Assembly (NCBI RefSeq): GCF_013409505.1
Contig: NZ_JACCBN010000001.1
Coordinates: 5,580,001-5,644,000, forward strand
Origin: Actinomycetospora corticicola
GTDB taxonomy: Bacteria; Actinomycetota; Actinomycetes; Mycobacteriales; Pseudonocardiaceae
Length of the DNA stretch: 64,000 nucleotides
Reading direction: 5' to 3'
Shown in pieces: positions 2,196 through 61,492 of the stretch. The notes beneath the pieces were generated by a model. It was not told the origin of the DNA. It saw only the letters and a list, made by a program, of their open reading frames with translations, and did not search any database. Every line of letters begins with the position of its first letter. The first letter of the stretch is position 1. The translations under genes and the position numbers were made by a program.

Positions 2196-2211
2196 GCCCC
2201 GTCGTCGGGAC
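2196..2211. repeat. iterated motif copy (reverse orientation), intergenic
   Basis: GCCCCGTCGTCGGGAC lies in the 35-base gap between ligB and the glycosyltransferase and matches the window-wide word GACCCGTCGTCGGGAA at 14 of 16 bases. The arms CCCG/CGGG can pair, but the loop is only 4 bases. See the finding on the iterated word. Confidence 0.5.
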
Positions 2212-2213
2212 GA

Positions 2214-3713
2214 TCAGCGGCGCAGCGCCCGAAGTGTGTCGAGGGTGTCGGTCTCGGCGAGCGGCTTGTCGTCGCGGTAGCGGACCACCCGGGCGAAGCG
2301 CAGCGCGACACCACCGGGGTAGCGGGTGGACGTCTGCACCCCGTCGAGCTCGATCTCCACGACGATCTCCGGCCGCAGGTACACGGTGGACGCGTCGCGC
2401 GACGTCTCGTACTGCGGAAACGTCTCGGTCTGCCAGCGCAGGGTCTCGTCGGTCATCCCCTTGAAGGTCTTGCCGACCATCACGAACCCGTCGTCGGTAC
2501 GGGCGCCGAGGTGGATGTTCGACAGCCACCCCCGCCGCCGTCCGGACCCCCACTCGCACGCCAGGACCACGAGGTCGAAGGTGTGCGACGGCTTGATCTT
2601 CTGCCAGGCCTTCCCGCGTCGGCCTGCGGTGTAGGTCGAGTCGAGGGCCTTGACCATCGAGCCCTCCTGGCCCGCCGCCAGCGCCTCGCGGATCGCCTCG
2701 GCGGCCCGCTCCGGCGTCGGGCGGAGCACCGACGGGATCACCCGGTCCCCGACGATCTCCGCGAGTTCCCGACGACGGGTCTCCAGGGGTTCGTCGACCA
2801 GGTCCCGGCCGTCACGGTGCAGGCAGTCGAAGTACCAGGGCTGCATCGCCCCGTTGCCCAGGCCCTTCATCGACTCCTGGAACGCCCGCGGCCGCCCGTC
2901 CTCCGCGACCGCGAGCGTCTCGCCGTCCAGCACGACGGTGTCCACGGGCAGTTCGCGGGTGAGCGCGACGATCTCCGGGACGGCGTCGGTGATCTCGTGC
3001 AGCGTGCGCGACCAGACCCGCACCTCGTCGCCGCGGCGGTGGACCTGGATGCGGGCGCCGTCGAGCTTGTGCTCGACGACGATCTCGCTGCCCAGGTCGG
3101 CCAGGGTGTCCTCGAGGGAGTCGCCGGGGGAGGCGAGCATCGGACGGACCGGCCGCATCACCTCGAGCCCGACCGCCTCCAGGGCGGCCACCGGGTCCTC
3201 GCTGCCCAGCGCCGTCCACGCGGTCTCGGGCAGCTGCCCGGAGAGCATGAACGCCCGGCGCACCACGTCGGCGGGCACCTCCGCAGCGGCGGCCACGGCC
3301 TCGACCATGAGCCCCTCGAGCGCGCCCTGACGCAGTTCGCCGCCGAGCAGCCGGACGAGGAAGCGGCCCTCGTCGGCGGTGGCGGCGCCGAGCAGCGCCG
3401 ACAGCTCCGCCGACCGCCGGGCGCCCACCCCGGTCCCCGACCCGGCGAGCGCCGCCAGGCGGTCCAGCGCCGCCTCGACGTCGGGAACGGACAGCGACGG
3501 CTCGTCGGCCGGGGAGACCTCGACCCCGGACAGCGTCCGCCAGCCGATCCCGGTGCGGCCCTGCCGCATGAACCCGGCGAGCCACGCCGTCACCGGCGCC
3601 ACCTCGCCGGGCGCCGCGTCGGCCAGGACCGCCGCGAGCGCGGCGGTCTTGGCCTTGCGGGACCGGGTCGCCCCGACCTCGGCGGAGGTCGCGACGACCC
3701 GGGCGAACAACAC
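2214..3713 (-). CDS. ligB: ATP-dependent DNA ligase (LigB type)
   Basis: A 499-residue protein with the nucleotidyltransferase lysine motif EHKLDGAR (Lys216 would carry AMP), DGETLAV (motif III region, about residue 285), and late motifs GSMVKALDSTY and AWQKIKP. About 195 N-terminal residues form the helical DNA-binding domain seen in archaeal-type ligases; the OB domain is at the C-terminus. Length and domain order fit mycobacterial LigB (about 507 aa) rather than the shorter LigC or the multidomain LigD. It joins nicks in DNA using ATP, alongside the essential NAD-dependent LigA. The GTG start is 2 bases after the fumC stop, so it is likely translated with fumC. A copy of the iterated 16-mer lies inside it (2766-2781), encoding TRRRE. 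Confidence 0.9.
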   Translation of the reverse strand: MLFARVVATSAEVGATRSRKAKTAALAAVLADAAPGEVAPVTAWLAGFMRQGRTGIGWRTLSGVEVSPADEPSLSVPDVEAALDRLAALAGSGTGVGARRSAELSALLGAATADEGRFLVRLLGGELRQGALEGLMVEAVAAAAEVPADVVRRAFMLSGQLPETAWTALGSEDPVAALEAVGLEVMRPVRPMLASPGDSLEDTLADLGSEIVVEHKLDGARIQVHRRGDEVRVWSRTLHEITDAVPEIVALTRELPVDTVVLDGETLAVAEDGRPRAFQESMKGLGNGAMQPWYFDCLHRDGRDLVDEPLETRRRELAEIVGDRVIPSVLRPTPERAAEAIREALAAGQEGSMVKALDSTYTAGRRGKAWQKIKPSHTFDLVVLACEWGSGRRRGWLSNIHLGARTDDGFVMVGKTFKGMTDETLRWQTETFPQYETSRDASTVYLRPEIVVEIELDGVQTSTRYPGGVALRFARVVRYRDDKPLAETDTLDTLRALRR

Positions 3714-3715
3714 GG

Positions 3716-6902: not shown

Positions 6903-7862
6903 TCAGCGCGGGGGTGGGCCCCAGCCGGAGTCGTCGCGGGTCACGTACTCGCGCTCCTCCTGCTGCGCCCAGTCCGCCGTCGGGTCGGCGGCGGGGGCGG
7001 AGCGCGGCAGCCCTTCCTGCGGTCGTTCCCGACGCCGGGGCGGGTCGGCCTCCGTGGGCGGGTTCGCCCCGCCGGTGGCCGCGGCCGGCGGCCCCGGCTG
7101 CTCGACCCGTCGTCGGGAAGGGTCGGCGGCCCGGTCGGCGGCCCGGTCGGCCCAGGCGGCGGCCGCGACCCCCTCGCGGGCGAGCGAGTGGACGCTCTCG
7201 CGCATGGCGCGGGTCGAGGCGGCCCGCAGCTCCGCGGAGAAGACGGGCAGCGGGGCGAAGCGGCCGAAGGTGTCGCGCAGGAAGTGGGCGAGCAGCGTGG
7301 CCGTCGAGCGGGACCGCCACATCGTCCAGCCGACGTAGAGGTCCTGGCCGTAGGGCTGGACCAGCAGCATCGCGCGCTCCGCCCGCTGCCGGAACAGCAG
7401 CACCGGGACGCCCGCGACCGTGCTCGGCGCGACCTCGGCCGGGGTGCGGCGGGCGCGGGCGGCGCGGGTGACCCAGTCGTAGGCGCCGCGGGCGGCCCCG
7501 GCCCGGTTCTCCAGGAGCCGCGAGTACTCCGCGATCGGTTCCTTCGCGGGCGCGAAGAACGCCGCGACCCCGGCGAGGTAGAGCACCACGATCACGGCGA
7601 GCAGCACGTTCATCACGAGACGCCCGGTGATCGACGGCCCGGAGGTCGACGCGAGGTAGTCCAGCAGCAGGTAGATCACCAGCAGCACGGTCGGCGCGAC
7701 GAGGAACGCGAGCGCCCGCATCAGGTGCGGCGAGAGCATCCGCCAGGAGACGACGTCCTCGACGAGCACGTCGGGATCGCGGTGGAGCCGGGTCTCGTCG
7801 TGGTAGCCGTCGTGCGCCTCGGCGATCGCGCGCTCCCAGGCCTCCTCCGGCGGGCTGCTCAT
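6903..7862 (-). CDS. conserved hypothetical membrane protein, 319 aa
   Basis: A 319-residue protein with two close transmembrane helices at roughly residues 48-69 (LMRALAFLVAPTVLLVIYLL) and 80-104 (VMNVLLAVIVVLYLAGVAAF). A cytoplasmic domain of about 120 residues follows, then a Pro/Arg/Ala-rich tail (about 240-319) that ends GWGPPPR. The middle domain (VQPYGQDLYVGWTMWRSRST) resembles uncharacterised actinobacterial membrane proteins; I recognise no catalytic motif. The tail contains one exact copy of the iterated 16-mer (7104-7119) read as SRRRV. It sits 24 bases after xseB and may be co-transcribed with it. Confidence 0.7.
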   Translation of the reverse strand: MSSPPEEAWERAIAEAHDGYHDETRLHRDPDVLVEDVVSWRMLSPHLMRALAFLVAPTVLLVIYLLLDYLASTSGPSITGRLVMNVLLAVIVVLYLAGVAAFFAPAKEPIAEYSRLLENRAGAARGAYDWVTRAARARRTPAEVAPSTVAGVPVLLFRQRAERAMLLVQPYGQDLYVGWTMWRSRSTATLLAHFLRDTFGRFAPLPVFSAELRAASTRAMRESVHSLAREGVAAAAWADRAADRAADPSRRRVEQPGPPAAATGGANPPTEADPPRRRERPQEGLPRSAPAADPTADWAQQEEREYVTRDDSGWGPPPR

Positions 7863-12520: not shown

Positions 12521-13822
12521 TCATCCGGTCAACCGATGCACCCCGCCTCCGTCCGCAACGCCGTCGGGAACCCCGTCCGTGGGCGGATCGACGTCGGCGG
12601 TGAGCTCCGGCGCCCCCGGCACCCGGGTCCGTCGGTCGACCTGCTCGACCTCGTCGAGCGCTCCCCGGGTGACCGCCAGCTCCGAGAACCGCCGCGCCGT
12701 GACCAGCACCCGCGACTCCAGCGACCCCACCGTCTCGTTGTAGGCCCGCACCCCCGCGTCCAGGGATCGGCCGAGCTTGCCGAGGTGTCCGCCGAGCGTG
12801 CCGAGCCGGGCGTGCAGCTCGCGGCCCAGCGCGTGGATCTCGGCGGCGTCGCGCGCGAGCGACTCCTGGCGCCACGCGTAGCCCACCGTGCGGAGCAGGG
12901 CGATGAGGGTCGTCGGCGTCGCGACCACCACGTCGGCGCCGAACGCGTGCTCCAGCAACCCCGGGTCGGCCTCGAGGGCCGCCGACAGGAACACCTCGCC
13001 CGGCACGAACATCACCACGAACTCCGGGGTCGGGTCGAAGCTGCGCCAGTAGGCCTTGGCCGACAACCCGTCGACGTGGGCCCGCAGCTGCCGGGCGTGC
13101 GCGGTCGCCCGCTCGCGCCGGGCCCCGTCGTCGGGAGCCTCGAGGGACTCCAGGTAGGCCGCGCACGGGACCTTGGCGTCGACCACGACCTGCTTGCCGC
13201 CCGCGAGCCGCACGACCATGTCGGGGCGCTGCGCCGTGCCCTCCGACCCCGCCGTCGACTGCCGGGTGAAGTCGCAGTGCTCGACCATGCCCGCGAGGTG
13301 CACCACCCGCTCCAGCTGCATCTCGCCCCAGCGCCCCCGCACGTGCGGCGTGCGCAGCGCCGTGGCCAGGGCCCGCGTCTCCCCGGCGACGCCCCTCGCC
13401 GACGCCGCCACCGCACCGACCTGCTCGCGCAGGCCCGCGAACGCGGCCTCCCGCTCGGACTCCGCGCTGCGCATCTGACCCTCGAGCCGCTGCAGGGTGG
13501 ACGCCACGGGGTCGAGCAGCGAGGAGACGGCGCGCTCCCGCTCGCGCATCCGGGAATCGGCCAGCGCCGAGAACTGCTCGGAGTTCGCCGCGAGCGCCTC
13601 CGCGGACAGCGCGGCGAACGACTCGCGCGCCGCCGCCCCGGACCGCCGCTCGGCCTCGAGCTCGGCCCGGGCCGCGGACGCCGCCGCCCCGGACCGCCGG
13701 GTGGCCTCCGCGATCGCCGCCTCCTGCCGGGCGACGGCCAGCCGGGAGGCGACCAGCGCCCCGCCGAGCGCGCCCAGGAGCAGCCCGAGGAGCAGGCCCA
13801 CCAGGACGCCGGTGATCGTCAT
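12521..13822 (-). CDS. rmuC: DNA recombination protein RmuC homologue
   Basis: A 433-residue protein with an N-terminal membrane helix (TGVLVGLLLGLLLGALGGAL), a coiled coil (about residues 28-120), and the RmuC nuclease-like domain: RGRWGEMQLERVVHLAGM near residue 140, VVDAKVPCAAY near 200, VVMFVPGEVF near 262. E. coli RmuC limits inversions at short inverted repeats, and the PD-(D/E)xK-like fold suggests a nuclease. A RecA-NDp/PafBC-like promoter directly precedes the ATG (13830-13851), which fits a DNA-damage role. The N-terminal helix anchors it to the membrane. Confidence 0.93.
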   Translation of the reverse strand: MTITGVLVGLLLGLLLGALGGALVASRLAVARQEAAIAEATRRSGAAASAARAELEAERRSGAAARESFAALSAEALAANSEQFSALADSRMRERERAVSSLLDPVASTLQRLEGQMRSAESEREAAFAGLREQVGAVAASARGVAGETRALATALRTPHVRGRWGEMQLERVVHLAGMVEHCDFTRQSTAGSEGTAQRPDMVVRLAGGKQVVVDAKVPCAAYLESLEAPDDGARRERATAHARQLRAHVDGLSAKAYWRSFDPTPEFVVMFVPGEVFLSAALEADPGLLEHAFGADVVVATPTTLIALLRTVGYAWRQESLARDAAEIHALGRELHARLGTLGGHLGKLGRSLDAGVRAYNETVGSLESRVLVTARRFSELAVTRGALDEVEQVDRRTRVPGAPELTADVDPPTDGVPDGVADGGGVHRLTG

Positions 13823-14376: not shown

Positions 14377-14387
14377 GGGAGTCTCCG

Positions 14388-14403
14388 CATCCGTCGTCGG
14401 GAA
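14388..14403. repeat. iterated motif copy (reverse orientation), intergenic
   Basis: CATCCGTCGTCGGGAA lies between the divergent alkyltransferase-like gene and ychF and matches the iterated word at 14 of 16 bases. It sits just upstream of the likely Shine-Dalgarno of the minus-strand gene. Confidence 0.45.
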
Positions 14404-14456
14404 AGGGCCTTCACCCGCTCCGACGCACGCCCGACCGTCCCGGATCCACCTTTCCC

Positions 14457-14462
14457 TAGACT
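14457..14462 (+). promoter_or_regulatory. -10 element of a likely leaderless ychF transcript
   Basis: TAGACT ends 8 bases before the ychF GTG, and no Shine-Dalgarno precedes that GTG. Transcription starting about 7 bases after the -10 would begin at or next to the start codon, the usual leaderless layout in actinobacteria. Confidence 0.5.
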
Positions 14463-14470
14463 GGACCCCC

Positions 14471-15547: not shown

Positions 15548-15563
15548 TTCCCGACGACGGGTC
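15548..15563. repeat. exact copy of the iterated 16-mer, intergenic
   Basis: TTCCCGACGACGGGTC begins 3 bases after the ychF stop. It is one of five exact copies in the window. Confidence 0.6.
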
Positions 15564-16826: not shown

Positions 16827-16851
16827 CCCTGTGATCGGGAACACTGCCGAC

Positions 16852-17121: not shown

Positions 17122-17126
17122 CGACA

Positions 17127-17162
17127 CCCGACGACGGAGCCGGACCCGGCCCCGTCGTCGGG
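17127..17162. terminator. bidirectional hairpin terminator built from two opposed iterated-motif halves
   Basis: CCCGACGACGG (17127-17137) and CCGTCGTCGGG (17152-17162) are perfect reverse complements, giving an 11-bp stem. The 14-base loop can itself pair GCCG with CGGC. It sits between convergent genes ending at 17121 and 17168. There is no T-tract, as is common for actinobacterial I-shaped terminators. Both arms are halves of the window's iterated word. Confidence 0.75.
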
Positions 17163-17167
17163 AAGGA

Positions 17168-18187: not shown

Positions 18188-18189
18188 GC

Positions 18190-18201: not shown

Positions 18202-18218
18202 CTTTCTGCTGTGGCTGA

Positions 18219-18256
18219 TTCCCGACGACGGGACCGATGATTCCCGACGCCGGGTC
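18219..18256. repeat. two tandem copies of the iterated word
   Basis: TTCCCGACGACGGGAC (18219-18234) and TTCCCGACGCCGGGTC (18241-18256), in direct orientation with period 22, lie in the divergent gap between the LLM oxidoreductase and the next plus-strand gene. Each differs from the consensus at one position. Confidence 0.6.
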
Positions 18257-18269
18257 CGGTCCCACCAGC

Positions 18270-21033: not shown

Positions 21034-22203
21034 TCAGGGAGCGCAGCCACCGGCGCGGGTGAACGTGTACCGGAAGGTGCCGCCGGGCTCGGCCGTGCGA
21101 CGCAGGTCGGCGATCCCGGCGTCGAAGGCCTCGGGCGTGGTGAGCCCGGCGGCGACGGCGGGTTCGCGGACCCCGGCGATCATCGCGGTGAAGGTGCGCA
21201 GCACGAACGCGTCGGCCGCGCCGGCGTCGTCGACGCGGACCTCGCGCGGCGACGTGGTCACGTCGGCGAAGCCCGCCGCGGAGAGCAGTTCGCCCAGCCG
21301 ACCGCCGATCATCGGGTCGCCACCGGCCTGACGTTGCAGGACGACCTGGCAGTCGATCGCCGTCCGGGCGGCGGCGCTGTCGGGCGTGAAGTCGGTGCTG
21401 GCGTGGTCGCCCTCGATCACGGTGATCGTCCCGCCCGGGCGGAGGGCGGCCCGCAGGGTGCGCAGCACGTCGAGCGGGTCCGACAGGTGCTCGAGCACGA
21501 AGCAGACGACGACGTGGTCGACCGGGCCGAGCCCGTCGTCGGGAAGGTCGTGGACGTCGAGGCGGCGGAAGGTGACGCCGGCGGCGAGACCGGCCGCGCG
21601 GACCCGCCGTCGGGCCTGGGCGAGCGAATCGGCCGAGATGTCGATCGCGGTGATGTGGGCACCGGGACTGCGGCGGGCGATGACGGTCGTCTGGGCCCCC
21701 ACCCCGCAGCCGACCTCGAGCACGTGGCTCCCGGTGGGGAAGGCGGTGTCCCGGTGGAGGAGGGCCTCGAGCGCCTCGGCCTGGTCGGCGAGCCGGGCGC
21801 CCTCCTCGGCGCGGTAGCCGTGGACGTAGCCGTCCACCATGGTCATCGCCGAGATCACCGACATGACCGAGCCGTCGCCGTCGAGTGCGGCCCGGAGCCG
21901 GTCGCGCAGGCGGACCGACCGCTCGATCTCGGTCTCGAGCCGCTCGAGGTGGTCCTGCAGCACGGCCGTCGCGTCGGGACTTCGCTCGTCCAGGGCGGCG
22001 CCGATCGCCTCGAGGCCCAGTCCGGTGCGCCGCAGCGCGAGGGCTCGGTAGAGCCGGGTGATGTCCGGGCCGCCGTAGCGGCGGTGCCCGCTCGTCGTCC
22101 GCCCGGGCCGCACGATCCCGACCTCGTCCCAGTGCCGCAGCACCCGCACCGAGAGGCCCGACGCCGCCGCGAGTTCGCCGACCGTCCACGTCCGTTCGTC
22201 CAC
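21034..22203 (-). CDS. MerR regulator fused to SAM-dependent methyltransferase
   Basis: A 389-residue fusion. Residues 1-75 are a MerR winged helix (WTVGELAAASGLSVRVLRHW, then SGHRRYGGPDITRLYR). A coiled coil follows at about 80-105. Residues about 140-380 are a class I methyltransferase with SAM motif VLEVGCGVGAQT (161-172), acidic loop ITAIDISADSL and DLPDDGLGPVDHVVVCF. The methyltransferase half resembles stand-alone UbiE-like enzymes. The effector domain of the regulator may have been replaced by an enzyme that senses SAM or a methyl acceptor. GTG start; a CTCAC-ACC-GTGAG palindrome lies just upstream, consistent with autoregulation. Confidence 0.88.
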   Translation of the reverse strand: MDERTWTVGELAAASGLSVRVLRHWDEVGIVRPGRTTSGHRRYGGPDITRLYRALALRRTGLGLEAIGAALDERSPDATAVLQDHLERLETEIERSVRLRDRLRAALDGDGSVMSVISAMTMVDGYVHGYRAEEGARLADQAEALEALLHRDTAFPTGSHVLEVGCGVGAQTTVIARRSPGAHITAIDISADSLAQARRRVRAAGLAAGVTFRRLDVHDLPDDGLGPVDHVVVCFVLEHLSDPLDVLRTLRAALRPGGTITVIEGDHASTDFTPDSAAARTAIDCQVVLQRQAGGDPMIGGRLGELLSAAGFADVTTSPREVRVDDAGAADAFVLRTFTAMIAGVREPAVAAGLTTPEAFDAGIADLRRTAEPGGTFRYTFTRAGGCAP

Positions 22204-23094: not shown

Positions 23095-23991
23095 TCAGTC
23101 ACCCAGACGGAGGGCGGTGACCGCGAGCCGGGCGACCTCACCGATCGCCGCGTCCACCCGGGGAAGCACCCGCTCCGGACGCGCGGCGAGCGTGAACACC
23201 GCGACCGCCACGGGCGCCTCGCCGGGGAACTCCACCACCCCGACCTCGTTGCGCAGCGCTCCGAGCGTGCCGGTCTTCCCCGAGCAGCGGACCTCGTCGA
23301 ACGGGAAGCCCGAGGCGATCCGGGCACGCGAGACCTGCAGGCCCAGGAGGCGACGGACGAACGCGCAGCCGGTCGGTGACGCCGCCGTGTCCCGCCAGAC
23401 CGCCGCGAGCAGCGTGGTCATGTCCCGGGCCGTCGTCGCGCTGCCGAGGACGGGGTCGTAGGCGGACGGTGGCGGGGGATCGTCCGGATCGGCCAGCCGC
23501 GCCGCGGCTGCGGTCGGATCGCGGACCCCCAGTTCGGCGGCCAGGGCGGCGAACGTCGCGTCCGCCCGTTCCACGCGGGTGTGGGCGAGGCCGAGCTCGG
23601 CCATCGCCGTACGGACCCGCGCCGGCCCGAGCACGTCCAGCAGGACGTCCGCCGCCGCGTTGTCCGACACGGTGGTCATGGACGTCGCCAGGTCGCGCAG
23701 CGACATCGTGACGGGGTCCGAGAGCACCGACAGTCCGGTCGGACCGTGGGTTCGCGACGACGGGTCGACGGTCACCGTGGCGCGCGGGTCCAGGTCCCCG
23801 GCGTCGACGGCGCGCACGAGCGCCACCAGCACCGGCAGCTTGAAGACCGAGGCCATCGTCACCGGCTCGTCGGGTCGCACCCCGAGCTCCGCGCCACCGT
23901 CGCCGACCATCCGCGCGTGCACCCAGCCGCGGACCCCGGCGTCGGCGAGGACCGCCCGGATCTCGGCGGTGGCCTCCGTCGCGAGGCTCAT
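23095..23991 (-). CDS. class A beta-lactamase-related serine hydrolase without signal peptide
   Basis: A 298-residue penicillin-binding-fold protein. Ser48-x-x-Lys51 (ASVFKLPVLVALV), SDN (109-111, TTVSDNAAADVLLD) and KTG (239-241, CSGKTGTLGALRNE) are all present. No convincing E-x-x-L-N omega-loop glutamate is seen, and there is no signal peptide or lipobox. It may be a cytoplasmic esterase or amidase rather than a true beta-lactamase. Its ATG overlaps the stop of the upstream LysR gene (ATGA), so regulator and enzyme are translationally coupled. A second, secreted class A enzyme lies divergently on the other side of that LysR gene. Confidence 0.85.
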   Translation of the reverse strand: MSLATEATAEIRAVLADAGVRGWVHARMVGDGGAELGVRPDEPVTMASVFKLPVLVALVRAVDAGDLDPRATVTVDPSSRTHGPTGLSVLSDPVTMSLRDLATSMTTVSDNAAADVLLDVLGPARVRTAMAELGLAHTRVERADATFAALAAELGVRDPTAAAARLADPDDPPPPSAYDPVLGSATTARDMTTLLAAVWRDTAASPTGCAFVRRLLGLQVSRARIASGFPFDEVRCSGKTGTLGALRNEVGVVEFPGEAPVAVAVFTLAARPERVLPRVDAAIGEVARLAVTALRLGD

Positions 23992-25014: not shown

Positions 25015-25890
25015 ATGACGCTCTCCCGACGACGGGTCCTCGCCCTCGGTGCCGCGGGCACGGCCGCCCTCCTCGGCGGCTGCGCCGCTCCCGCCCCGGC
25101 GCCCCTCGAGCCGACCACCCCCGCCGTCGGGAACGATCCCTTCGCGGCGATCGAGGCGGGCTTCGGTGGCCGCCTCGGCGTGTTCGCGCTCGACACCGCC
25201 ACCGGGCGGACGGCCGGGCACCGGGCCGACGAACGGTTCCTGCTGTGCTCGACCTCGAAGATGCCGACCGCCGCGGCGATCCTGGCGCGGCGGGTGCCGC
25301 TCGAGGAGGTCGTGCGCTACGCGCCGGCCGACCTGGTGCGGAACTCGCCGACCACCTCGCGGTCGACCGCGCTCACGATCGGCGAGCTCTGCGCCGCCGC
25401 GATCACCGTCTCGGACAACACCGCGGAGAACCTGCTGCTGCGCCGGCTGGGCGGGCCGGAGGCGGTCGAGGCGTACCTCCGGACGATCGGCGACGGCGTC
25501 ACGAGCCTCGACCGGTACGAGCCGGAGCTCAACGCCCGGCAGGGCACGCTCGACACGTCGACCCCGCGGCAGATGGCGGCGACGCTGCAGGCCTGCACGC
25601 TCGGGACCGGGCTGGACGGGTCCGGCCGCCGGCAGCTCACCGACTGGCTCGTCGCCAACACCACCGGCGGGCAGCGCATCCGCGCGGGCCTGCCGGCCGG
25701 GTGGCGCACCGGCGACAAGACCGGGAGCGGCGACCGGAACGAGGTGAACGACGTGGCGGTGACGTGGCCTCGCGGGCGCCCACCGGTCCTCGTCACGGTC
25801 TACACCGAGCCCGCCGATCCGGCCGAGGAGCGCAACGTCCCCGCGGTCCCGGCGGCCGCCGCCGCGGCGGTCCGGGCCCTCGGATTCTGA
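25015..25890 (+). CDS. bla: class A beta-lactamase, Tat-type lipoprotein
   Basis: A 291-residue enzyme with all class A motifs: Ser79-T-S-Lys82 (CSTSKMPTAA), SDN (133-135), E169-P-E-L-N173 omega loop, and KTG (235-237, DKTGSG). The signal has a twin-arginine motif (SRRRVLALG) and a lipobox ending at Cys23 (ALLGGC), so it is likely exported by Tat and lipid-anchored. It hydrolyses penicillins and perhaps cephalosporins outside the membrane. The twin-arginine codons are formed by a copy of the iterated 16-mer (25023-25038). It is divergent from the LysR gene. Confidence 0.95.
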   Translation: MTLSRRRVLALGAAGTAALLGGCAAPAPAPLEPTTPAVGNDPFAAIEAGFGGRLGVFALDTATGRTAGHRADERFLLCSTSKMPTAAAILARRVPLEEVVRYAPADLVRNSPTTSRSTALTIGELCAAAITVSDNTAENLLLRRLGGPEAVEAYLRTIGDGVTSLDRYEPELNARQGTLDTSTPRQMAATLQACTLGTGLDGSGRRQLTDWLVANTTGGQRIRAGLPAGWRTGDKTGSGDRNEVNDVAVTWPRGRPPVLVTVYTEPADPAEERNVPAVPAAAAAAVRALGF

Positions 25891-27478: not shown

Positions 27479-27940
27479 TCAGCCGAGCTGCACGCAGACC
27501 CCCGCGACGACCTTCAGGCACACGGCCACCGCGGGGGCCCGTGAGGGCGCGACGGAGGCCCGCGGGGCGGATGCCGGGGGCTGCGGCGCCGGCGATCCCG
27601 ACGACGATCCCGACGACGGGTCCGCGGGCCGGGGCGCCCGGGCGGCGGTCGCGGGGGCGGTGGTGTCGCCCGCGACGGCCGGCGCGGGGTCGCGCGTGGT
27701 CCCCGGAGCGGTCGGCGTCGTCGGCGCGGCGGGTGCCTGCGACCGGACCTCGCCCCCGGCCGGGACCACCACGGCGGCAGGGGCGGGCGGCGCGCCCGTC
27801 GGGCCCCCGACGGCGGGTGCGGTCGGCGTGGGCGTCGAGGCCTCGGCGTCCTCGGCCACGCGGGTCAGCACCGTGGCCACCTGCGCCACGATCATCATCG
27901 CGAGGGCGCCGGCGGCGACGGCGAGCAGGATCCGGCGCAC
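27479..27940 (-). CDS. secreted/membrane-anchored Pro-Ala-rich protein, 153 aa
   Basis: A 153-residue protein with an N-terminal membrane helix (ILLAVAAGALAMMIVAQVAT). A low-complexity Pro/Ala/Thr/Ser region of about 110 residues follows, ending in VAVCLKVVAGVCVQLG with two cysteines that could form a disulfide. No family is recognised. It probably lies on the outside with a small terminal knob. The centre holds a copy of the iterated 16-mer (27607-27622) read as DPSSG. Confidence 0.6.
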   Translation of the reverse strand: MRRILLAVAAGALAMMIVAQVATVLTRVAEDAEASTPTPTAPAVGGPTGAPPAPAAVVVPAGGEVRSQAPAAPTTPTAPGTTRDPAPAVAGDTTAPATAARAPRPADPSSGSSSGSPAPQPPASAPRASVAPSRAPAVAVCLKVVAGVCVQLG

Positions 27941-35493: not shown

Positions 35494-36424
35494 GACGACG
35501 CAGACCACCCCGGCGACCCACCCGGGGAAGGTGCCCGACCCGCCGTCGGGACGGGCCGACGGCGGCGACGTGGGCGGGGCCTTCCTGACCCAGGGCCAGC
35601 TCGTCCGGCGGCGCTTCCTGCGCCACCGCGCGGCGATGACCGCGCTGACGATCCTGGTGCTGTTCATCCTGTTCGTCTACATCGCCCCGTTCTTCCTCGG
35701 GTACTCCCTGACGAACCTCTCCGCGGGGTCCTACGAGGACCCGAGCCCGGCGCACATCTTCGGCACCGACCAGGTCGGCGCGGACGTGTTCTCGCTGGTG
35801 ATGAAGGGCTCGCAGTTCTCGCTGCAGATCGGGTTCATCGCCGCGGTCATCTCGACGGTGGTCGGGGTGCTGCTCGGCACCACCGCGGGCTACCTGCGCC
35901 GCGGCACCGACACGGCGGTCTCGCGGGTCACCGACCTCTTCCTGGTCGTCCCGCTGCAGGCCGTCGCGGCGATCCTCATCGCGGGCCTCGGCGGCTCCTG
36001 GTGGCTGGTCGGACTCATCCTCGGGTTCTTCCTCTGGATGCCGATCGCCCGCGTCACGCGCGCCGAGGCGCTGGCGCTCGCGCAGCGCGAGTTCGTCGAG
36101 GCCGCCCGGGCGTCGGGGGCGACGACGTGGCGGATCGTCACGAAGCACCTCGTGCCGAACATGATCGGCACGATCGTGGTGAACGCGACCCTCACCCTCG
36201 CGCTCGCCGTCCTCACCGAGGCGGCGCTGTCGTTCATCGGGCTCGGCGTGCAGATCCCGGACACCTCGCTGGGCCTGGTGCTCAACCAGAACTACACCCA
36301 GCTCGGGACGCGTCCGTGGCTGTTCTGGGCGCCGTTCGTGGCGATCGTGCTGATCTCGCTGACCATCAACTTCATCGGCGACGGGTTGCGCGACGCGTTC
36401 GACCCGCGCCAGACCAGGCGGTAG
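35486..36424 (+). CDS. oligopeptide ABC transporter permease (OppC/DppC)
   Basis: A 312-residue permease. A cytoplasmic N-terminal tail (about 45 residues) precedes the first helix ([20 protein letters not shown]). It has the family features [14 protein letters not shown] (about 88-101) and the EAA loop [20 protein letters not shown] (about 190-209). It ends [17 protein letters not shown], typical of DppC. Start is a TTG at 35486 overlapping the OppB stop. Together with OppB it forms the membrane channel. Confidence 0.95.
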
Positions 36425-40223: not shown

Positions 40224-41071
40224 GCCGCATGGTGCTCGTCCACGCCCATCCCGACGACGAGACGATCACGTCCGGCGGGCTGATGGCCCGGGCCGTCGAC
40301 GCCGGCTGGGACGTCACGCTCGTCACCTGCACGCTCGGCGAGCTCGGCGAGGTCATCCCGCCGGAGCTGAAGTACCTCGAGGGCTCGGCCGAACTCGCGC
40401 CGTACCGCGCGAAGGAGCTGGCCGCCGCGTGCGCCGCGCTCGGCGTCACCGACCACCGCCTCCTCGGCGAGGAGGGCCGCTGGCACGACTCCGGCATGGT
40501 CTCCACCGGCGAGGGCATCCGCGCGGCCGCTCCGGCCCACCTGTCCGAGGGCGCGTTCGCCACGCGCGCGGACGTCGACCTCCAGGTCCACCAGCTCGTG
40601 GAGATCCTCGAGGAGACCACCCCCGACGTCGTGATCAGCTACGACGCCTCCGGCGGCTACGGCCACCCCGACCACGTCCGCGCCCACGAGATCGCCGGCG
40701 GCGCGGTGGAGCGGATCGACCCGCTGGGGGAGCGCGTCGCGCTGTACGCGGCGGTCGCCCCGTACGGGGAGGTGGCGCGCGGCCTGGAGGCCCTGCGCCG
40801 CCGCCCGTGGCTGGGCCTGCCGGTCCCGGACGTGGGTGGGCTCCCGACGGTCCCCGACGACACGGTCACCGTCCGCATCGCCCTCGGCCCCGCGCGCATC
40901 CGCAAGCTCGCCGCCCTGCGGGCGCACGCCACCCAGATCACCGTGCACGACGACGGGTCCGAGCCGCCCGTCTTCGCCCTCTCCAACGAGCTGGCGCAGC
41001 CGGTGATCGGCAGCGAGGGCTTCGTGCTCCTGCGGGGTCCCGACGGCGGGTTGGCGGCGCTCTCGGCGTGA
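40220..41071 (+). CDS. mshB: GlcNAc-Ins deacetylase MshB (mycothiol biosynthesis)
   Basis: A 283-residue zinc deacetylase of the LmbE/PIG-L family. Zinc motif AHPDDE lies at residues 9-14 (His10, Asp13) and the third ligand in YGHPDHVRAHE near residue 150. GELGEVIPPELKYL and GEEGRWHDSGM match MshB closely. It removes acetate from GlcNAc-inositol in the second step of mycothiol synthesis; homologue Rv1170. GTG start overlaps the upstream stop; an ATG at 40229 is also possible. Its own TGA overlaps the next gene's GTG. Confidence 0.95.
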   Translation: MSRMVLVHAHPDDETITSGGLMARAVDAGWDVTLVTCTLGELGEVIPPELKYLEGSAELAPYRAKELAAACAALGVTDHRLLGEEGRWHDSGMVSTGEGIRAAAPAHLSEGAFATRADVDLQVHQLVEILEETTPDVVISYDASGGYGHPDHVRAHEIAGGAVERIDPLGERVALYAAVAPYGEVARGLEALRRRPWLGLPVPDVGGLPTVPDDTVTVRIALGPARIRKLAALRAHATQITVHDDGSEPPVFALSNELAQPVIGSEGFVLLRGPDGGLAALSA

Positions 41072-41467: not shown

Positions 41468-42058
41468 TCAGCGGCGGTGCTCCGCCCCGGACAGCCCGAT
41501 CAGCGTCCACACGGCCGAGATGCCGAGCAGCGGCACGGCGATCGCGGCGATGTTCGGGGCGAGGTCGATGTCGATGCGGCACGCGGCCAGGAGCGCGACC
41601 GCGACGATCATGCCCAGCACCCCGTCGCCGACGCGCACCGAGCGGGGCGGAGGAGGCGGCCGGTGGGCGGACGCCGCCGCGGCGGCGGCGCGCGGCCCGG
41701 GAGCCGGACCGTCGACGACGACCGGCCCCGACCCGACGTCGGGAAGGAGCCGACCGGGCGAGCGCGGGAGGCCGCGGCCGACGAGCTCGTCGACGGCGGC
41801 GCCGAGCCCGGAGCGGGGGACCCGCACCGTCCGGGAGCCGTGCCGGAACACCCGCCGCCCGTCGGCGGAGTGCTCGGCGTACTCGACCTCCCACTCCTCG
41901 AGGCCGTCCACCGGCCGGAAGAGCAGGCGTCGCTCGCGGCGCCCGGAGGCGGGGAACCACCACGAGACCGCGCCGCTGCGACAGGCGCCGTAGTGCGCGC
42001 CGAGCGCGGTGAGATGCGGGCCGACCTCGGCCCGTACCGCGTTCGCCCGGATGTCCAC
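41468..42058 (-). CDS. hypothetical protein with C-terminal membrane helices, 196 aa
   Basis: A 196-residue protein. The N-terminal ~105 residues look like a soluble alpha/beta module (HYGACRSGAVSWWFPASGRR; LFRPVDGLEEWEVEYAEHSA). A Pro/Ala-rich linker follows, then two membrane helices at the end (VLGMIVAVALLAACRIDIDL; IAAIAVPLLGISAVWTLIGL). No family recognised. GTG start at 42058; diverges from the next gene. The linker holds the perfectly palindromic variant of the iterated word, GACCCGACGTCGGGAA (41730-41745). Confidence 0.6.
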   Translation of the reverse strand: MDIRANAVRAEVGPHLTALGAHYGACRSGAVSWWFPASGRRERRLLFRPVDGLEEWEVEYAEHSADGRRVFRHGSRTVRVPRSGLGAAVDELVGRGLPRSPGRLLPDVGSGPVVVDGPAPGPRAAAAAASAHRPPPPPRSVRVGDGVLGMIVAVALLAACRIDIDLAPNIAAIAVPLLGISAVWTLIGLSGAEHRR

Positions 42059-43432: not shown

Positions 43433-44526
43433 GCGCGGGCAGCCTGCCCGCCCTCCCGGACTTCCCCTGGGACAGTCTCGCCGCGGAGACGGCGACGGCG
43501 CGGTCGCACCCCGACGGCGTCGTCGACCTCTCCGTGGGCACCCCGGTCGACCCGGTGCCCGCCGTCGTCGCGACCGCCCTGCAGGAGGCCTGGAACTCGC
43601 CGGGCTACCCGCAGACCCACGGCACGCCGGCGCTGCGGAACGCGGTCGTCGAGGCGCTCGCGCGGCGCTTCGGCGTCGCCGGGCTGGAGCCCGACGCCGT
43701 GCTGCCGACGATCGGCTCCAAGGAACTGGTCGCGTGGCTGCCCACTCTGCTGGGCCTCCGGGGTGCGGTCGTCGCGATCCCGTCGCTCGCGTACCCGACC
43801 TACGAGGTCGGGGCGCTGCTGGCGGGCGCGGAGGCGGTCCGTGTTCCCGACGACGGGCCGCTGCCGCGCGACGCGCGGCTGGTCTGGCTCAACTCGCCGT
43901 CGAACCCGACCGGCCGGGTGCTGTCGGCCGAGGCGCTGGCCGCCCGAGTCGCGGAGGCTCGCGGGATCGGCGCGGTCGTGGCGTCCGACGAGTGCTACCT
44001 CGGGTTGCCCGGTCCCGGCTCCGACCCGGTGTCGGTGCTGGACCCCCGCGTGCACGGCGGGTCCCTCGAGGGCCTGCTGGCGGTCCACTCGCTGTCCAAG
44101 ACCTCGCAGCTCGCGGGGTACCGGGCGGCGTTCGTGGCCGGTGACCCGGCGCTCGTGTCCTCGCTCCTCGCCGTGCGCAAGCACGCCGGGATGATCGTGC
44201 CGCGCCCGGTGCAGGAGGCGATGACGGCGGCGCTGTCCGACGACCTGCACGTGGCCGAGACGCGGCAGCGCTACGACGCGCGCCGCGCCGTGCTGCGCCC
44301 CGCGCTGGAGGCGGCGGGGTTCACCGTCGACCACTCCGAGGCGGGCCTCTACCTGTGGGCGACCCGGGGCGAGCCGTGCCGCGCGACCCTGGGGTGGCTC
44401 GCCGAGCGGGGCGTGCTCGTCGCGCCGGGGGAGTTCTACGGTCCCGACGGCGGGTCGCACGTGCGGATCGCGCTCACGGCCTCCGACGAGCGGATCGGCA
44501 CCGCCGCGGCCCGACTGGGCGCCTGA
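43429..44526 (+). CDS. dapC: succinyldiaminopimelate transaminase
   Basis: A 365-residue fold-type I PLP aminotransferase: [13 protein letters not shown] (about 33-45), [20 protein letters not shown] (about 58-77), [12 protein letters not shown] (about 155-166), DECYLGL (about 187-193), and PLP lysine 224 in [17 protein letters not shown]. It converts N-succinyl-2-amino-6-ketopimelate to N-succinyl-LL-DAP in lysine and peptidoglycan synthesis. GTG overlaps the fdxA stop. dapD and dapE lie within 2.4 kb downstream, completing three steps of the succinylase branch. Confidence 0.94.
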
Positions 44527-53338: not shown

Positions 53339-54328
53339 TCAGCCCAGCAGCGAGGCGCAGAGCAGCCCGTCGGACAGGGGCAGCAGCAGCGGGGCGAGGC
53401 GCTCGTCGGTGCGCACCATCCGCACCGTCTCGCGCAGTGCCGCGGAGATGGCGTCCCGGCGGGCGGGGTCGGTGACGCGGCCGGTCCAGCAGACGTTGTC
53501 GAGCACGACCACGCCGCCGGGGCGGAGCAGGCGGATCGCCTCGGTGAGGTAGAGCGGGTACTCGACGGTCGCGGCGTCGACGAGCACGAGGTCGTAGGCG
53601 GCGTCGGAGAGCCGGGGGAGCACCTCGAGCGCCCGCCCCGTGATCATCCGCACCCGGCCCGACCCGAAGCCCGCCTCAGCGCAGGTGATCCGGGTGAGTC
53701 GCTGGTGCGCCACCTCGGTGTCGATGCTGGTCAACAGGCCCTCGCGCGGCATCCCCCGCAGCAGGCTCACGGTGCCGACCCCGGCGCCGGTGCCGATCTC
53801 GACGACGGCGCGGGCCCGGCCGGACGAGGCGAGGAAGGTCAGGGCCGCGGCGGCACCGACCCCGACCGGGACGATGCCGTGCTCCAGTGCGCGCTCCCGC
53901 GCGGCCGCGAGGACCTCGTCCTCCGCGCTGAAGTGCTCGGCGCGGGCCCGCAGGCGCTCGCGCTCACCGGCGCCCTCGTCGACGTCCTCGACGTCGACCG
54001 GACCCGGCGCGACCGGCCCCGTCCCGGCGTCGGGAAGAGGTCCCGCGGGCATCAGCCGCGGCAGGGGCTGCGGGGTGGTGGCGGCCTCGTCCTCGGTCGG
54101 GCGCGGACGGCCGGCGAACGACGTGCTCGGCAGGCGTAGCGGGCCGGTGGGCACGCGCGGGTAGACCGGGATGCGCGCGGTGCTGCGACCCGGTCGGTGG
54201 GCGCTGCGGCGGGTGGCGTCATCGGAGGTCCGGACCGGCGTCCGACCCGTGGGCGGCGCGGCCGCCGGCGGCGGGACGGGAGGGTGGGGCGTGACCGGAT
54301 CGGTGCCGACGACCCGGAGCGTGCGCAC
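53339..54328 (-). CDS. O-methyltransferase (Rv1220c-like) with Pro-rich N-terminal extension
   Basis: A class I methyltransferase of the catechol O-methyltransferase-like family: VVEIGTGAGVGTVSLLRGMP (SAM site), LLTSIDTEVAHQRLTR, LVLVDAATVEYPLYLTEAIR, VVVLDNVCWTGRVTDP. The catalytic domain is the C-terminal ~220 residues. An open N-terminal stretch rich in Pro and Arg precedes it. GTG 54328 has GAGGGG 9 bases upstream; ATG 54052 (237 aa) gives the usual family length but no ribosome site. Divergent from sigE exactly as Rv1220c-sigE. Confidence 0.85.
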   Translation of the reverse strand: MRTLRVVGTDPVTPHPPVPPPAAAPPTGRTPVRTSDDATRRSAHRPGRSTARIPVYPRVPTGPLRLPSTSFAGRPRPTEDEAATTPQPLPRLMPAGPLPDAGTGPVAPGPVDVEDVDEGAGERERLRARAEHFSAEDEVLAAARERALEHGIVPVGVGAAAALTFLASSGRARAVVEIGTGAGVGTVSLLRGMPREGLLTSIDTEVAHQRLTRITCAEAGFGSGRVRMITGRALEVLPRLSDAAYDLVLVDAATVEYPLYLTEAIRLLRPGGVVVLDNVCWTGRVTDPARRDAISAALRETVRMVRTDERLAPLLLPLSDGLLCASLLG

Positions 54329-55135: not shown

Positions 55136-55791
55136 TCGGCCGCGCCGGGGGAACGCCCTGGTCGCGCTGGTCCGACTCCGGGCACCTCACGCTGGACGCC
55201 GTGGTCGCCTTCGTCGACGGCGAGCTGGGCGAGGCCGCCGCGGGCCGCGCCGCCGCCCACGTCGACCACTGCCCGAGCTGTGCGGGCGAGGTGGGCGCGC
55301 AACGTCAGGCCCGCCGTCGGCTCCGCGCCGCCGACTGCCCCGGCGTCCCCTCCTCGTTGCTGACGTCGCTGCGCAACATCCCCGACCACGCCGAGCTGCC
55401 CGAGGTCCCCGCCGGGCTCGGGCTGGACGCCGAGGGCCGCTTCGTCGTGCCCGCCGAAGCGCCGCCGGCCCGGCACGGTCGCCGCGGTGGTCGTCGCCCG
55501 CGTTCCCGACGACGGGTCCTCCCGGCGGTCGTCGCGTCCGGCCTCGTGGCCGGGGCGGCCGCCGTGGCGGCGCCGGTCCTGGCGGCAGGTGCCCCCGCGG
55601 TCCCGGCGCCCGGGCGCGCGCCCGACGCGGCCGCGTCGTTGACGGCGGCCGTGCCCGCCGTGGGGGAGCGCGGCAACGCCGTCGCCGGGGCCGTCGTGCA
55701 GGACGCGGTGGCCCGTGCGGCCACCCCGACGAGCGCCACCACGCCTCCCGCAGCACCGGGTGACGCCACCCGGGCGCGCCCGTCGTCCTGA
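55132..55791 (+). CDS. rseA: zinc anti-sigma factor RseA, with a candidate membrane helix
   Basis: A 219-residue anti-sigma factor. The ZAS domain is [20 protein letters not shown] with His43-x3-Cys47-x2-Cys50. A basic linker includes SRRR (encoded by an exact iterated 16-mer, 55503-55518), followed by a moderately hydrophobic segment [20 protein letters not shown] (about 128-147) that could cross the membrane. It holds SigE inactive until degraded or oxidised. GTG overlaps the sigE stop. The Ala/Pro/Thr-rich tail is unlike M. tuberculosis RseA, which is shorter. Confidence 0.9.
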
Positions 55792-58620: not shown

Positions 58621-58655
58621 CGGTGCCCGAACCACCGCGCACCAGGAGTCCCGTC

Positions 58656-59534: not shown

Positions 59535-59538
59535 TCCT

Positions 59539-59574
59539 TCCCGACGGCGGGTCGGGGCGCGCCGGTCGGCGCGT
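59539..59574 (+). terminator. iterated-word copy plus GC hairpin after the dioxygenase
   Basis: TTCCCGACGGCGGGTC (59539-59554, one mismatch from the iterated word) begins 4 bases after the stop. CGCGCC-GGTC-GGCGCG follows within 59559-59574 as a compact hairpin. The rest of the 251-base gap up to 59785 holds a second inverted repeat (59733-59758) and presumably the promoter of the next operon. Confidence 0.5.
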
Positions 59575-59732
59575 CACCCGGCCCGCTCGTCGTCCTCCCG
59601 CGGCCGGACGGACGACGCCTCCTCGTCGTGCGGCGCAAGCGCCTGAACTTCGCGATGGTGACGACCCGTACATCCGTGGCCAAACCGTGATAGTGGTGTA
59701 ACACTCGGACGGTCCGTGACGGTAATGGACAT

Positions 59733-59758
59733 ATCGGCATCGATCGGGCGATGCCGAT
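59733..59758. promoter_or_regulatory. perfect 10-bp inverted repeat upstream of the polysaccharide operon
   Basis: ATCGGCATCG (59733-59742) and CGATGCCGAT (59749-59758) around ATCGGG, 27 bases before the GT2 ATG and 18 before its GGGAG. It could be an operator or a 5'-leader hairpin. No known riboswitch fold was recognised. Confidence 0.5.
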
Positions 59759-59785
59759 GGAGTGACGAGTCGGTCGGGAGACACC

Positions 59786-61492
59786 ATGCGTCAGGCTGAG
59801 GGAGGGCATCGCGCGTCCACGACGCTGCTCGATGCTCCGACCGGTGGCATGAGACGCGCCCGTCCGGGTCACAGCCCGCGGATCACGGTCGCCCAGCTCC
59901 TCGCCGCGCAGCTCGAGGACGAAGAGGCACCCACCACGCGGTTCCCCGCGCCGGTGGCGGCCGGCCGCATCCCGGGCGCGCGCGCCGGGTCCGGGCCCCT
60001 GCCCGCCGTCACCGCGCAGGCCCTCGAGGCCGCCGCCACCACCACCACCGCCAGCGCCCCGCCCACGCGACGCCACGCCACCCGCCCGACGCCGGGGCCC
60101 CGCCGCGCCGACCGGACCGGCCGACCGGCCCGCCACGCGGTCGCCGCGCCCGCCCCGGAAGCGCCCGCGCCGTCGGTCCCGACCTCGGCCGCGCCCGCGC
60201 CGTCGGCCCCGATGCCGACCGCGCCCGCCCGCCGGACGCCCTCCCCGGCACCTCGTCCGACGGCCGGTGCGCCCGCACCCACGCCGGCCGCACCCACGCC
60301 GGCCGCACCCGCCCGGCGGACGCCGTCCCCGGCTCCGCGCGAGACGGCGACGGCCACCTCCACGCCCCCGGCCCCGCGGCCCACCGCGGCGCCGCGCCCG
60401 ACCGCGGCCGCCGCCGGAACCCGTCGTCGGGAAGGGCGGACGGCGACGGGCGTGACCAGCCTCGTCGTCCTCGTCCCCGCGCACGACGAGGAGGCAGGCA
60501 TCGCCGACACCGTCGAGGGCCTGCTGGCGCAGGAGACGCCGGAGTGGCTGGAGATCGCCGGGATCGTCGTGGTGGCCGACAACTGCACCGACCGCACCGT
60601 CGAGATCGCCCGCCGCTACCCGGTGACGGTCATCGAGACCGAGGGCAACACCGAGAAGAAGGCGGGCGCCCTCAACGAGGGCTGGCGCCGCGCCGCACGC
60701 GACGCGGACCTCGTCCTGACGATGGACGCCGACACCGTGCTGCGCCCCGGGTGCGCCGCCGCGATGGCCGCCGAGCTGCGGGCGGACACGATGCTCGGCG
60801 GGGTCTGCGCGCGCTACTGGGCCGCGCCCGGCCGCGGGCTCGCGTGGCGGCTGCAGCGCCTCGAGTACAGCCGCTACGACGACCTGCGGGAGCTGCGGAG
60901 CTGGCGGGTCAGCGTCGCGAGCGGGGCGGCCGCGATGTACCGGCGCCAGGCGCTCGACGAGGTTGCGGTCCACCGGAACGCCGGTCCGTGGGACGGCTCG
61001 TCGCTCATCGAGGACTACGCCCTCACCCTCGACCTCAAGACCGCGGGCTGGAAGGTCGGCGCCGCCCGCGACGCGCACGTGCTCACCGAGCCGCCGCGGA
61101 CGTTCCGCGAACTGTGGGTGCAGCGGCTGCGCTGGGGCCGCGGCGGGATGGACGAGTGCCTCAAGCGCGGCTGGATCCCGGCCACCCGGCGCGACATCGC
61201 GTCCTACGGGCTGTTCGTGCTCAGTGTGTTCTTCCGCGTCCTGTTCATCACGATGATCGTCCTGATGATCACGCACGCGGTCCCGTTCCGGTACGCGCTG
61301 GTCGGGCTCATCCCGCTCGGCGTGATGTGGCTGGAGCGGGTCACCTCGATGTGGCGGTTGCCCGGACGGAGCGTGCAGGACGTCGCGCTCGTGGCCGTGC
61401 TCGTCGTCGAGGACCTGTACGGCTTCTTCCTGGAGTTCTGCGCGGTCGTCGCCGCGTGGCGCTGTCTGTTCGCCAGGCGCCAGGCCTGGTAG
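59786..61492 (+). CDS. processive GT2 glycosyltransferase with long disordered N-terminus
   Basis: A 568-residue family 2 enzyme of the chitin synthase/NodC/PgaC type. Residues 1-220 are Ala/Pro/Thr-rich with a duplicated APARRTPSPAPR. The GT-A domain starts at TSLVVLVPAHDEEAGIADTV (about 222). It has D-x-D in TMDADTVLRP (Asp314, Asp316), the acceptor motif IEDYALTLD (Glu409, Asp410) and QRLRWGRGGM (Gln446-Trp450). Three to four C-terminal membrane helices form the channel. It probably polymerises a UDP-hexosamine into a beta-linked chain and secretes it. GGGAG lies 5 bases before the ATG. Confidence 0.9.
   Translation: MRQAEGGHRASTTLLDAPTGGMRRARPGHSPRITVAQLLAAQLEDEEAPTTRFPAPVAAGRIPGARAGSGPLPAVTAQALEAAATTTTASAPPTRRHATRPTPGPRRADRTGRPARHAVAAPAPEAPAPSVPTSAAPAPSAPMPTAPARRTPSPAPRPTAGAPAPTPAAPTPAAPARRTPSPAPRETATATSTPPAPRPTAAPRPTAAAAGTRRREGRTATGVTSLVVLVPAHDEEAGIADTVEGLLAQETPEWLEIAGIVVVADNCTDRTVEIARRYPVTVIETEGNTEKKAGALNEGWRRAARDADLVLTMDADTVLRPGCAAAMAAELRADTMLGGVCARYWAAPGRGLAWRLQRLEYSRYDDLRELRSWRVSVASGAAAMYRRQALDEVAVHRNAGPWDGSSLIEDYALTLDLKTAGWKVGAARDAHVLTEPPRTFRELWVQRLRWGRGGMDECLKRGWIPATRRDIASYGLFVLSVFFRVLFITMIVLMITHAVPFRYALVGLIPLGVMWLERVTSMWRLPGRSVQDVALVAVLVVEDLYGFFLEFCAVVAAWRCLFARRQAW

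Follow-up and report, generated by a model that had tools for sequence, protein, structure and literature searches.

In one branch of the genus Actinomycetospora, the whole chromosome, genes included, is dotted with hundreds of copies of a single 16-letter word, TTCCCGACGACGGGTC, that is kept at the DNA level. The word was noticed in a 64,000-bp stretch of Actinomycetospora corticicola (the window), which comprises bases 5580001-5644000 of the single 6,166,488-base contig of genome G000, a 6.17-Mb chromosome of 74% GC. The pressure on the word is recent and clade-bound, acts on the DNA in any reading frame and on either strand, and has no polarity. We favor the reading, to which we give a probability of roughly 0.45, that the word is recognized by a protein of the clade and works like a DNA uptake sequence, with uptake-biased recombination as the likeliest driver.

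Abundance and form of the word

At one mismatch or fewer, the word occurs 629 times in the G000 chromosome, 313 times on the forward and 316 times on the reverse strand, and a reversed-word control has no matches. A sample of 23 G000 blocks totaling 864 kb, with the window included, contains 223 copies with two or fewer mismatches (23 exact, 82 with one, and 118 with two), of which 198 are outside the window; 30 shuffled words have 0 to 7 matches each in the same sample, and extrapolation gives about 1,600 copies for the chromosome. With training on this sample, an order-5 Markov model predicts no copies at zero or one mismatch and 7.5 at two, and there is still an excess at three mismatches (187 observed, 74.5 predicted), with none at four (487 and 472). 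Enrichment of near-words is graded, reaching up to three mismatches. Scored as 12- and 14-base words in the sample, the word has z values of 52 and 82, and its nearest competitor, a separate hairpin repeat, has 31 and 26; among 8- to 10-base words others score close, as at 10 bases (23.2 with 13 copies versus 24.1 with 174 copies).

The consensus is approximately cnTTCCCGACGnCGGGTcsgg, with a CCCG-N4-CGGG core and about 14 to 16 informative bases. In the 222 copies whose flanks are complete, the strong letters are T1, C2-4, G5, A6, C7, G8, C10, G11-13, and T14, with weaker ones at T0 and C15, a weak C at -2, and a weak G at 17-18, beyond which there are only slight deviations out to 45 bases; the choice of copies at two or fewer mismatches sharpens these letter frequencies. 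Position 6 is A at a frequency of 1.0 to two decimals, whereas its dyad partner, position 9, is free (A 67%, G 19%, C 10%, T 5%), and the word is therefore asymmetric and not a palindrome. The fixed loop bases would be left unexplained by an RNA hairpin.

Placement in genes and on the chromosome

Genes were called by GC3 heuristics, with errors in places (as at comEC), and the frame and gap counts are therefore approximate. The 223 sampled copies, 102 on one strand and 121 on the other, include 146 in coding sequence, 74 in intergenic sequence, and 3 at an edge, and the exact copies divide into 10 coding and 13 intergenic. The 623 called genes (665 kb) hold 147 copies, with 26, 46, and 13 in the three sense registers and 25, 29, and 8 in the antisense registers, compared with totals of 5 to 20 in 20 synonymous-codon shuffles and 0 to 4 in 10 codon-order shuffles. 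The reading-frame indifference described in an earlier note on this DNA extends to all six registers, each of which is above its shuffled mean, so that enrichment is not confined to a single frame, and counts exceed what codon or hexamer frequencies predict, both by codon-preserving shuffles and by the order-5 Markov model. Copies are fewest in the two registers that spell Arg-Arg-Arg, which is what a pressure on the DNA would give if it were filtered by what proteins tolerate.

Copies favor permissive sequence and convergent gene ends. Identity in the flanks of word sites is below the all-column mean in seven of seven relatives (in G001 by 0.003 only), and convergent gaps hold 17 copies in 16.8 kb, tandem gaps 18 in 33.1 kb, and divergent gaps 7 in 21.3 kb; the convergent excess has a Poisson tail of 0.025 and the divergent deficit one of 0.068. 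Across 1.26 Mb of word-rich sequence, eight pairs of copies (two or fewer mismatches) are 16 to 45 bp apart, versus 2.6 expected at random, and seven of the eight have the inverted (+-) arrangement, which would allow a hairpin; the close pairs at three mismatches number 24 versus 8.9 expected, of which 13 are +-, 5 ++, 4 -+, and 2 --. Three of the five +- pairs in G000 are within 50 bp of the 3' end of a called gene, and for the other two the nearest called gene is more than 200 bp away.

With dnaA at 4536311 and the terminus assumed to be at the point opposite, 113 copies are on the leading and 110 on the lagging strand, and density by quarters from origin to terminus is 2.6, 2.45, 2.5, and 3.3 per 10 kb. 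This mixed orientation and flat density agree with the earlier distinction of the word from polar KOPS (FtsK-orienting polar sequences). The eight 5-kb windows below 68% GC hold two copies, a number confounded with composition.

Distribution among species

A comparison with sister species, proposed when the word was first described, shows it to be clade-bound. We searched 18 Actinomycetospora genomes at one mismatch or fewer; relatives with names in our labeling include G001 (Actinomycetospora sp. NBRC 106378), G009 (A. sp. TBRC 11914), G010 (A. succinea), G015 (A. endophytica), and G017 (A. callitridis). Five genomes are word-rich (G000, G001, G006, G014, and G016), with 511 to 629 copies (511 to 608 in the four sisters of G000), three are sparse (44 copies in G009, 71 in G015, and 29 in G013, which is 59% complete), and ten, G003 among them, are wordless with 0 to 4 copies each. 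The xseA gene of the window has its best relatives in Actinomycetospora. The xseA genes of the five word-rich genomes are 91 to 100% identical to that of the window and those of the sparse genomes 84 to 85%; G003, an incomplete genome, has a partial xseA match of 84%, on a par with the sparse group. A further 43 genomes (19 of the family and 24 of the order) have 0 to 3 copies, and among 396 evenly drawn Actinomycetota genomes none but G000 has more than 6.

The core CCCGACGNCGGG occurs at 1.0 per 100 kb in wordless G010, at 11.7 and 13.2 in G015 and G009, two of the three sparse species, and at 25.0, 35.6, and 33 in word-rich G006, G016, and G000 (285 in 864 kb for the last), with the G009 density inflated in part by a tandem array. 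This gradient would make the origin of the word traceable species by species if the uptake reading is true. The G009 array (L257:8271-8399) has 5.4 copies of a 24-bp unit, CGACGGCGGGTGGGGGCAGGGTCC, that holds much of the word, and a peak of GACGGCGGGTGG in G009, considered as another dialect, was set aside since it derives in part from this one locus. In the stretches sampled from seven of the ten wordless congeners (44 to 200 kb each), there is no comparable dispersed 12-mer, in a search that dropped words with fewer than 60% of their copies in separate 3-kb bins. A phage origin was also considered and rejected: the exact word is present in 10 viral-contig stretches, in a scan from which records near G000 may be omitted, and with one match in each there is no iteration there.

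Evolution of the word

The word is better conserved than its flanks in four clade relatives and not in G010, G009, and G015. For 47 copies in 140 kb of G000, the word and flank identities are 0.895 and 0.846 in G016 (31 alignable sites), 0.896 and 0.808 in G006 (27 sites), 0.894 and 0.871 in G014 (19 sites), and 0.926 and 0.885 in G001 (11 sites), compared with 0.752 and 0.757 in G010 (11 sites), 0.795 and 0.791 in G009 (22 sites), and 0.782 and 0.792 in G015 (20 sites). Three blocks of the 140-kb reference are unaligned, two of which are at its end and possibly beyond the compared stretches.

At near-word sites, losses of word letters are half as frequent as expected and gains about twice as frequent. 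In 194 kb of polarized alignment columns, with no selection on the derived state and expectations from trinucleotide rates, ancestral windows zero to three mismatches from the word have 51 changes away from it versus 103.8 expected (Poisson tail of 7e-9), and those one to three mismatches off have 12 changes toward it versus 5.6 expected (tail of 0.012). By distance, changes toward the word number 4 versus 0.3 at one mismatch (tail of 3e-4), 2 versus 1.0 at two, and 6 versus 4.4 at three, with no excess at four (25 versus 27.6) or five (161 versus 166.7). Forty shuffled words, pooled, have 636 changes away versus 670.4 expected and 49 toward versus 55.5, and a smaller test using partly the same data goes in the same direction.

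Alignments are available for 31 of the 47 sites, and several coding copies arose without gaps, opposite non-word sequence in outgroups, as at window position 43844. Indels within the 16 columns are nevertheless common in comparisons outside the clade: 10 of 22 sites in G009, 10 of 20 in G015, and 6 of 11 in G010, versus fractions of 0.117, 0.119, and 0.164 in random windows and 0.262, 0.254, and 0.231 in flanking windows. For clade relatives, the numbers are 6 of 25 in G006 and 8 of 30 in G016 (0.090 and 0.073 in random windows; 0.212 and 0.159 in flanking windows), 2 of 18 in G014 (0.181 in flanking windows), and 2 of 11 in G001 (0.152). Part of the indel excess is regional. The earlier note proposed selection or copying at the DNA level. 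Pressure at that level is supported, with loss suppressed, gain raised, and six registers enriched; copying of a discrete inserted unit does not fit the gap-free coding copies, despite the indel excess relative to outgroups.

Comparison with known systems

Two unrelated Gram-negative families, with their self-DNA uptake tags, provide the best-known examples of such a pattern. Like the word, the DNA uptake sequences (DUS) of Neisseriaceae have many copies in coding and permissive intergenic regions, inverted terminator-linked pairs, restriction to a clade, and graded near-words, as described in parts of PMC3630211 and PMC1939737; the former links the inverted pairs to transcriptional terminators and notes permissive placement, and the latter describes accumulation by point mutation with graded over-representation of near-words. 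The same likeness holds for the uptake signal sequences (USS) of Pasteurellaceae, for which sections of PMC1939737 suggest an origin by point mutation rather than insertion. The word differs from DUS in its high-GC Gram-positive host and in its length of about 14 to 16 informative bases. USS differ in having a 9-base core with an AT-rich extension and a predicted receptor in the minor pilin PpdA/ComN, according to excerpts of PMC12616744. The hallmarks of uptake sequences found here are over-representation, presence on both strands and in permissive regions, inverted pairs at gene ends, and spread by point mutation.

Machinery that could serve uptake is widespread in the genus. ComEC (PF03772) is matched in 16 of the 18 congeners, the misses being G003 (83% complete) and G013 (59% complete), and a pilus-type ATPase (PF00437, T2SSE) is strongly matched in 15 of the 18 and matched as two pieces in G015, with no match found in G003 and G013. 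Neighbors of the G000 ATPase gene match T2SSF and a Tad domain, and Tad genes are needed for transformation in the actinobacterium Micrococcus luteus, as reported in a portion of PMC4322843. The two G015 pieces are about 57 kb apart (C9 1814802-1815236 and 1872585-1872983), as if the gene were interrupted or rearranged. A gene for a PALP enzyme at the edge of the com stretch is absent from that stretch in word-rich G006 too.

As DUS and USS are the closest known pattern, we think uptake-biased recombination the likeliest driver. A clade protein would recognize the word as double-stranded DNA, and word-bearing fragments would enter other cells of the clade more often, perhaps through the ComEC and Tad machinery. 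The fragments taken up would recombine into the chromosome, and such recombination would spread mutations toward the word and undo those away from it wherever coding allows. We count for this reading the copy number, the graded near-words, the use of six registers, the suppressed loss and raised gain, the better conservation of the word than of its flanks in four clade relatives, the convergent gene ends and inverted pairs, and the lack of polarity, together with the presence of ComEC and the T2SSE ATPase and the role of Tad in M. luteus transformation.

Several observations weigh on the other side. Wordless congeners have ComEC and the Tad-type ATPase just as word-rich ones do, so that these genes do not track the word, and no word-tracking gene was found in the com stretches of 8 and the tad stretches of 10 relatives, using crude GC3 gene calls and no dedicated receptor search; AAA ATPase and metallo-beta-lactamase-fold genes that seemed clade-specific lie just outside the wordless stretches and are present in wordless genomes. 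The gain excess amounts to 12 events concentrated at one mismatch, and an approximately twofold indel excess at word sites remains in comparisons outside the clade, contrary to spread by point mutation, so that indels may have brought in some of the copies found in linkers and gaps. The excess in convergent gaps is modest, given its tail of 0.025, the heuristic gene calls, and the double counting of members of inverted pairs. Spacing matches random placement (coefficient of variation [CV] of 1.04, long blocks) and is not even, and much of what is seen would also be expected from a nucleoid-type binding protein. A 2025 article (PMC12616744) also states, in one of its sections, that Neisseriaceae and Pasteurellaceae are the only families known to do this.

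Among the titles listed in searches of an open-license library, none reports an uptake-type word in Gram-positive bacteria or actinobacteria. Somewhat more tentatively than for the uptake reading itself, we suggest that this may be the first self-recognition word of the DNA uptake type in a lineage of Gram-positive bacteria (Actinomycetota), and one observed while still spreading. A long, recently expanded actinobacterial word would extend uptake-type behavior to monoderm bacteria or else reveal another DNA-reading system able to bend coding sequence, and because word-rich, sparse, and wordless species coexist in one genus, an origin by selection for function or by molecular drive is directly testable.

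The main rival, which we regard as unlikely but well ahead of the others, is that a chromosome-organizing or nucleoid protein specific to the clade binds the word, which is kept by direct selection for that binding and has no role in uptake. Flat density from origin to terminus, the lack of polarity, and the DNA-level suppression of loss and raising of gain all suit it, and the CCCG-N4-CGGG core suggests a possible dimeric DNA-binding protein; however, spacing is random rather than even (CV of 1.04), at many aligned sites the sister species differ in their copies, this reading does not predict inverted hairpin pairs, and no nucleoid protein is known to us that has about 1,600 sites, each 14 to 16 bp long. 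Recognition repeats are read by the TraB proteins of streptomycetes, and a TraB/FtsK-like translocase of a mobile element could similarly read the word and mobilize chromosomal DNA, with spread by biased conjugation and recombination; the logic of the drive would be the same as for uptake, and we consider this improbable. Slightly less probable again is creation and maintenance of the word by a DNA methyltransferase with methylation-dependent repair, as proposed for the highly iterated palindromes (HIPs) of cyanobacteria in a section of PMC4390886. The earlier likening to HIP1 is apt insofar as a word is iterated through the chromosome in all frames, but HIPs are palindromes associated with cognate methyltransferases (PMC4390886), and the word is longer (14 to 16 bp), asymmetric, and, among the genomes searched, limited to one clade. 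No DNA-methyltransferase family is common to the five word-rich genomes among the three families searched, PF00145 (C5 methylase; in G000 and G014 and not found in G001, G006, and G016), PF01555 (in G006 only), and PF02384 (long matches in two, partial or weak ones in G016 and G006, and none in G000). DNA uptake sequences fit the word better than HIP1 does.

Insertion of a mobile short repeat, like the repetitive extragenic palindromic (REP) sequences or miniature inverted-repeat transposable elements (MITEs), into genes and gaps is disfavored and very improbable. Relative to the outgroups G009, G015, and G010, word sites have more indels than flanking windows, and some copies (7026 and 17149) align beside gaps; but this difference shrinks or reverses relative to clade relatives, the flanks share weak letters only, alignment of several coding copies to non-word sequence needs no gap, and all six registers are used, leaving the indel excess as the contrary result. 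Chi and KOPS are over-represented, oriented words that are polar to replication. A recombination or segregation signal of this kind would suit a density of one per few kb and the over-representation but is contradicted by the 113/110 leading/lagging distribution and flat density, and is less credible still. A compositional artifact (of codons or bases) in a genome with 74% GC, for which the GC-rich letters speak and nothing further, is refuted by the codon-preserving shuffles and Markov controls and by the wordless congeners with 0 to 4 copies, the seven sampled of which have 71 to 77% GC.

Copies and other features in the window

The window has 41 matches at three or fewer mismatches, compared with a mean of 3.53 (largest 9) in 100 dinucleotide shuffles. 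All five exact copies and all copies with one or two mismatches previously listed are present (Table 1), although one given as 59539 starts at 59538, and the scan adds others, such as those at 1115, 7026, 13122, 23751, and 40944. The hairpin near 17127 has a stable predicted fold (-35.2 kcal/mol over 66 nt, z of -4.15); it had been taken for a terminator built from opposed word halves, and the hairpin stands, but a scan of 16500-18500 that required a T tract detected neither a terminator nor a T tract.

Table 1. Copies of the word and an associated hairpin in the window
Position	Strand	Feature	Remarks	Evidence
1115..1130	-	Word, 2 mismatches		Scan
2196..2211	-	Word, 2 mismatches		Scan
2766..2781	+	Exact word	Exact also in G016, G014, G006, and G015; 2 mismatches in G009; non-word in G010	Scan and alignment
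7026..7041	+	Word, 2 mismatches	Inverted pair with 7104, 78 bp apart; aligns beside gap	Scan and alignment
7104..7119	-	Exact word		Scan
13122..13137	-	Word, 2 mismatches	In RmuC-like gene; aligns gap-free to outgroup non-word sequence	Scan and alignment
14388..14403	-	Word, 2 mismatches		Scan
15548..15563	+	Exact word	Directly follows YchF gene (14114-15544)	Scan
17127..17162	.	Hairpin from opposed word halves	Lies between called genes 16831-17121 (+) and 17168-19213 (-), which converge; no T tract detected	Folding
17149..17164	-	Word, 1 mismatch	Right arm of hairpin between convergent genes; aligns beside gap	Scan and alignment
18219..18234	+	Word, 1 mismatch	Direct pair with 18241	Scan
18241..18256	+	Word, 1 mismatch	Direct pair with 18219	Scan
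21530..21545	-	Word, 2 mismatches		Scan
23751..23766	+	Word, 1 mismatch		Scan
25023..25038	+	Word, 1 mismatch		Scan
27607..27622	+	Word, 1 mismatch		Scan and alignment
28642..28657	-	Exact word	Inside called gene	Scan and alignment
35537..35552	-	Word, 2 mismatches		Scan and alignment
40944..40959	+	Word, 2 mismatches	Gap-free alignment with outgroups	Scan and alignment
41730..41745	-	Word, 1 mismatch	CCCGACGTCGGG form	Scan and alignment
43844..43859	+	Word, 1 mismatch	TGGCCGACGACGAGCC at this site in G009 and G015, no gap	Scan and alignment
44441..44456	+	Word, 2 mismatches		Scan and alignment
54021..54036	-	Word, 2 mismatches		Scan and alignment
55503..55518	+	Exact word	Inside called gene	Scan and alignment
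59538..59553	+	Word, 1 mismatch	Directly follows called gene 58623-59534	Scan and alignment
60418..60433	-	Word, 1 mismatch		Scan

The window also has a called frame at 23581-25890 (+), residues 481-768 of which match class A beta-lactamases; its first approximately 480 residues are unmatched in the best 25 of 94 NCBIfam rows, and the start may be miscalled. A different sequence, TGCGCAAGC, has eight copies in the window (6027, 20212, 22291, 36672, 44174, 49718, 50820, and 51080) versus 0.19 expected from an order-3 model.

Other dispersed repeats

Other repeats are present in these genomes. The 19-mer CAGCAACGACGCTTTCCTG is dispersed in G000 (C1 2106511, 3047835, 3101204, 3103967, 3194231, 3316815, 3316845, and 5719264), is inverted on itself at 3316815/3316845, and has an imperfect inverted partner at 2106511; it looks like a separate REP-like hairpin element. 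A palindrome, GGGGCTATAGCCCC, is present at four places in the 864-kb sample (C1 158537, 305164, 5863029, and 5863614), always within AGTGGGGCTATAGCCCC on one or both strands. Small dispersed repeats were also seen in the sparse species, with AGTGCTCACGAG in G009 (L194, L196, L198, L199, and L038) and also in G015 (L193), and TGTCAGCGATG in G015 (L187, L189, L192, L045, and L262).

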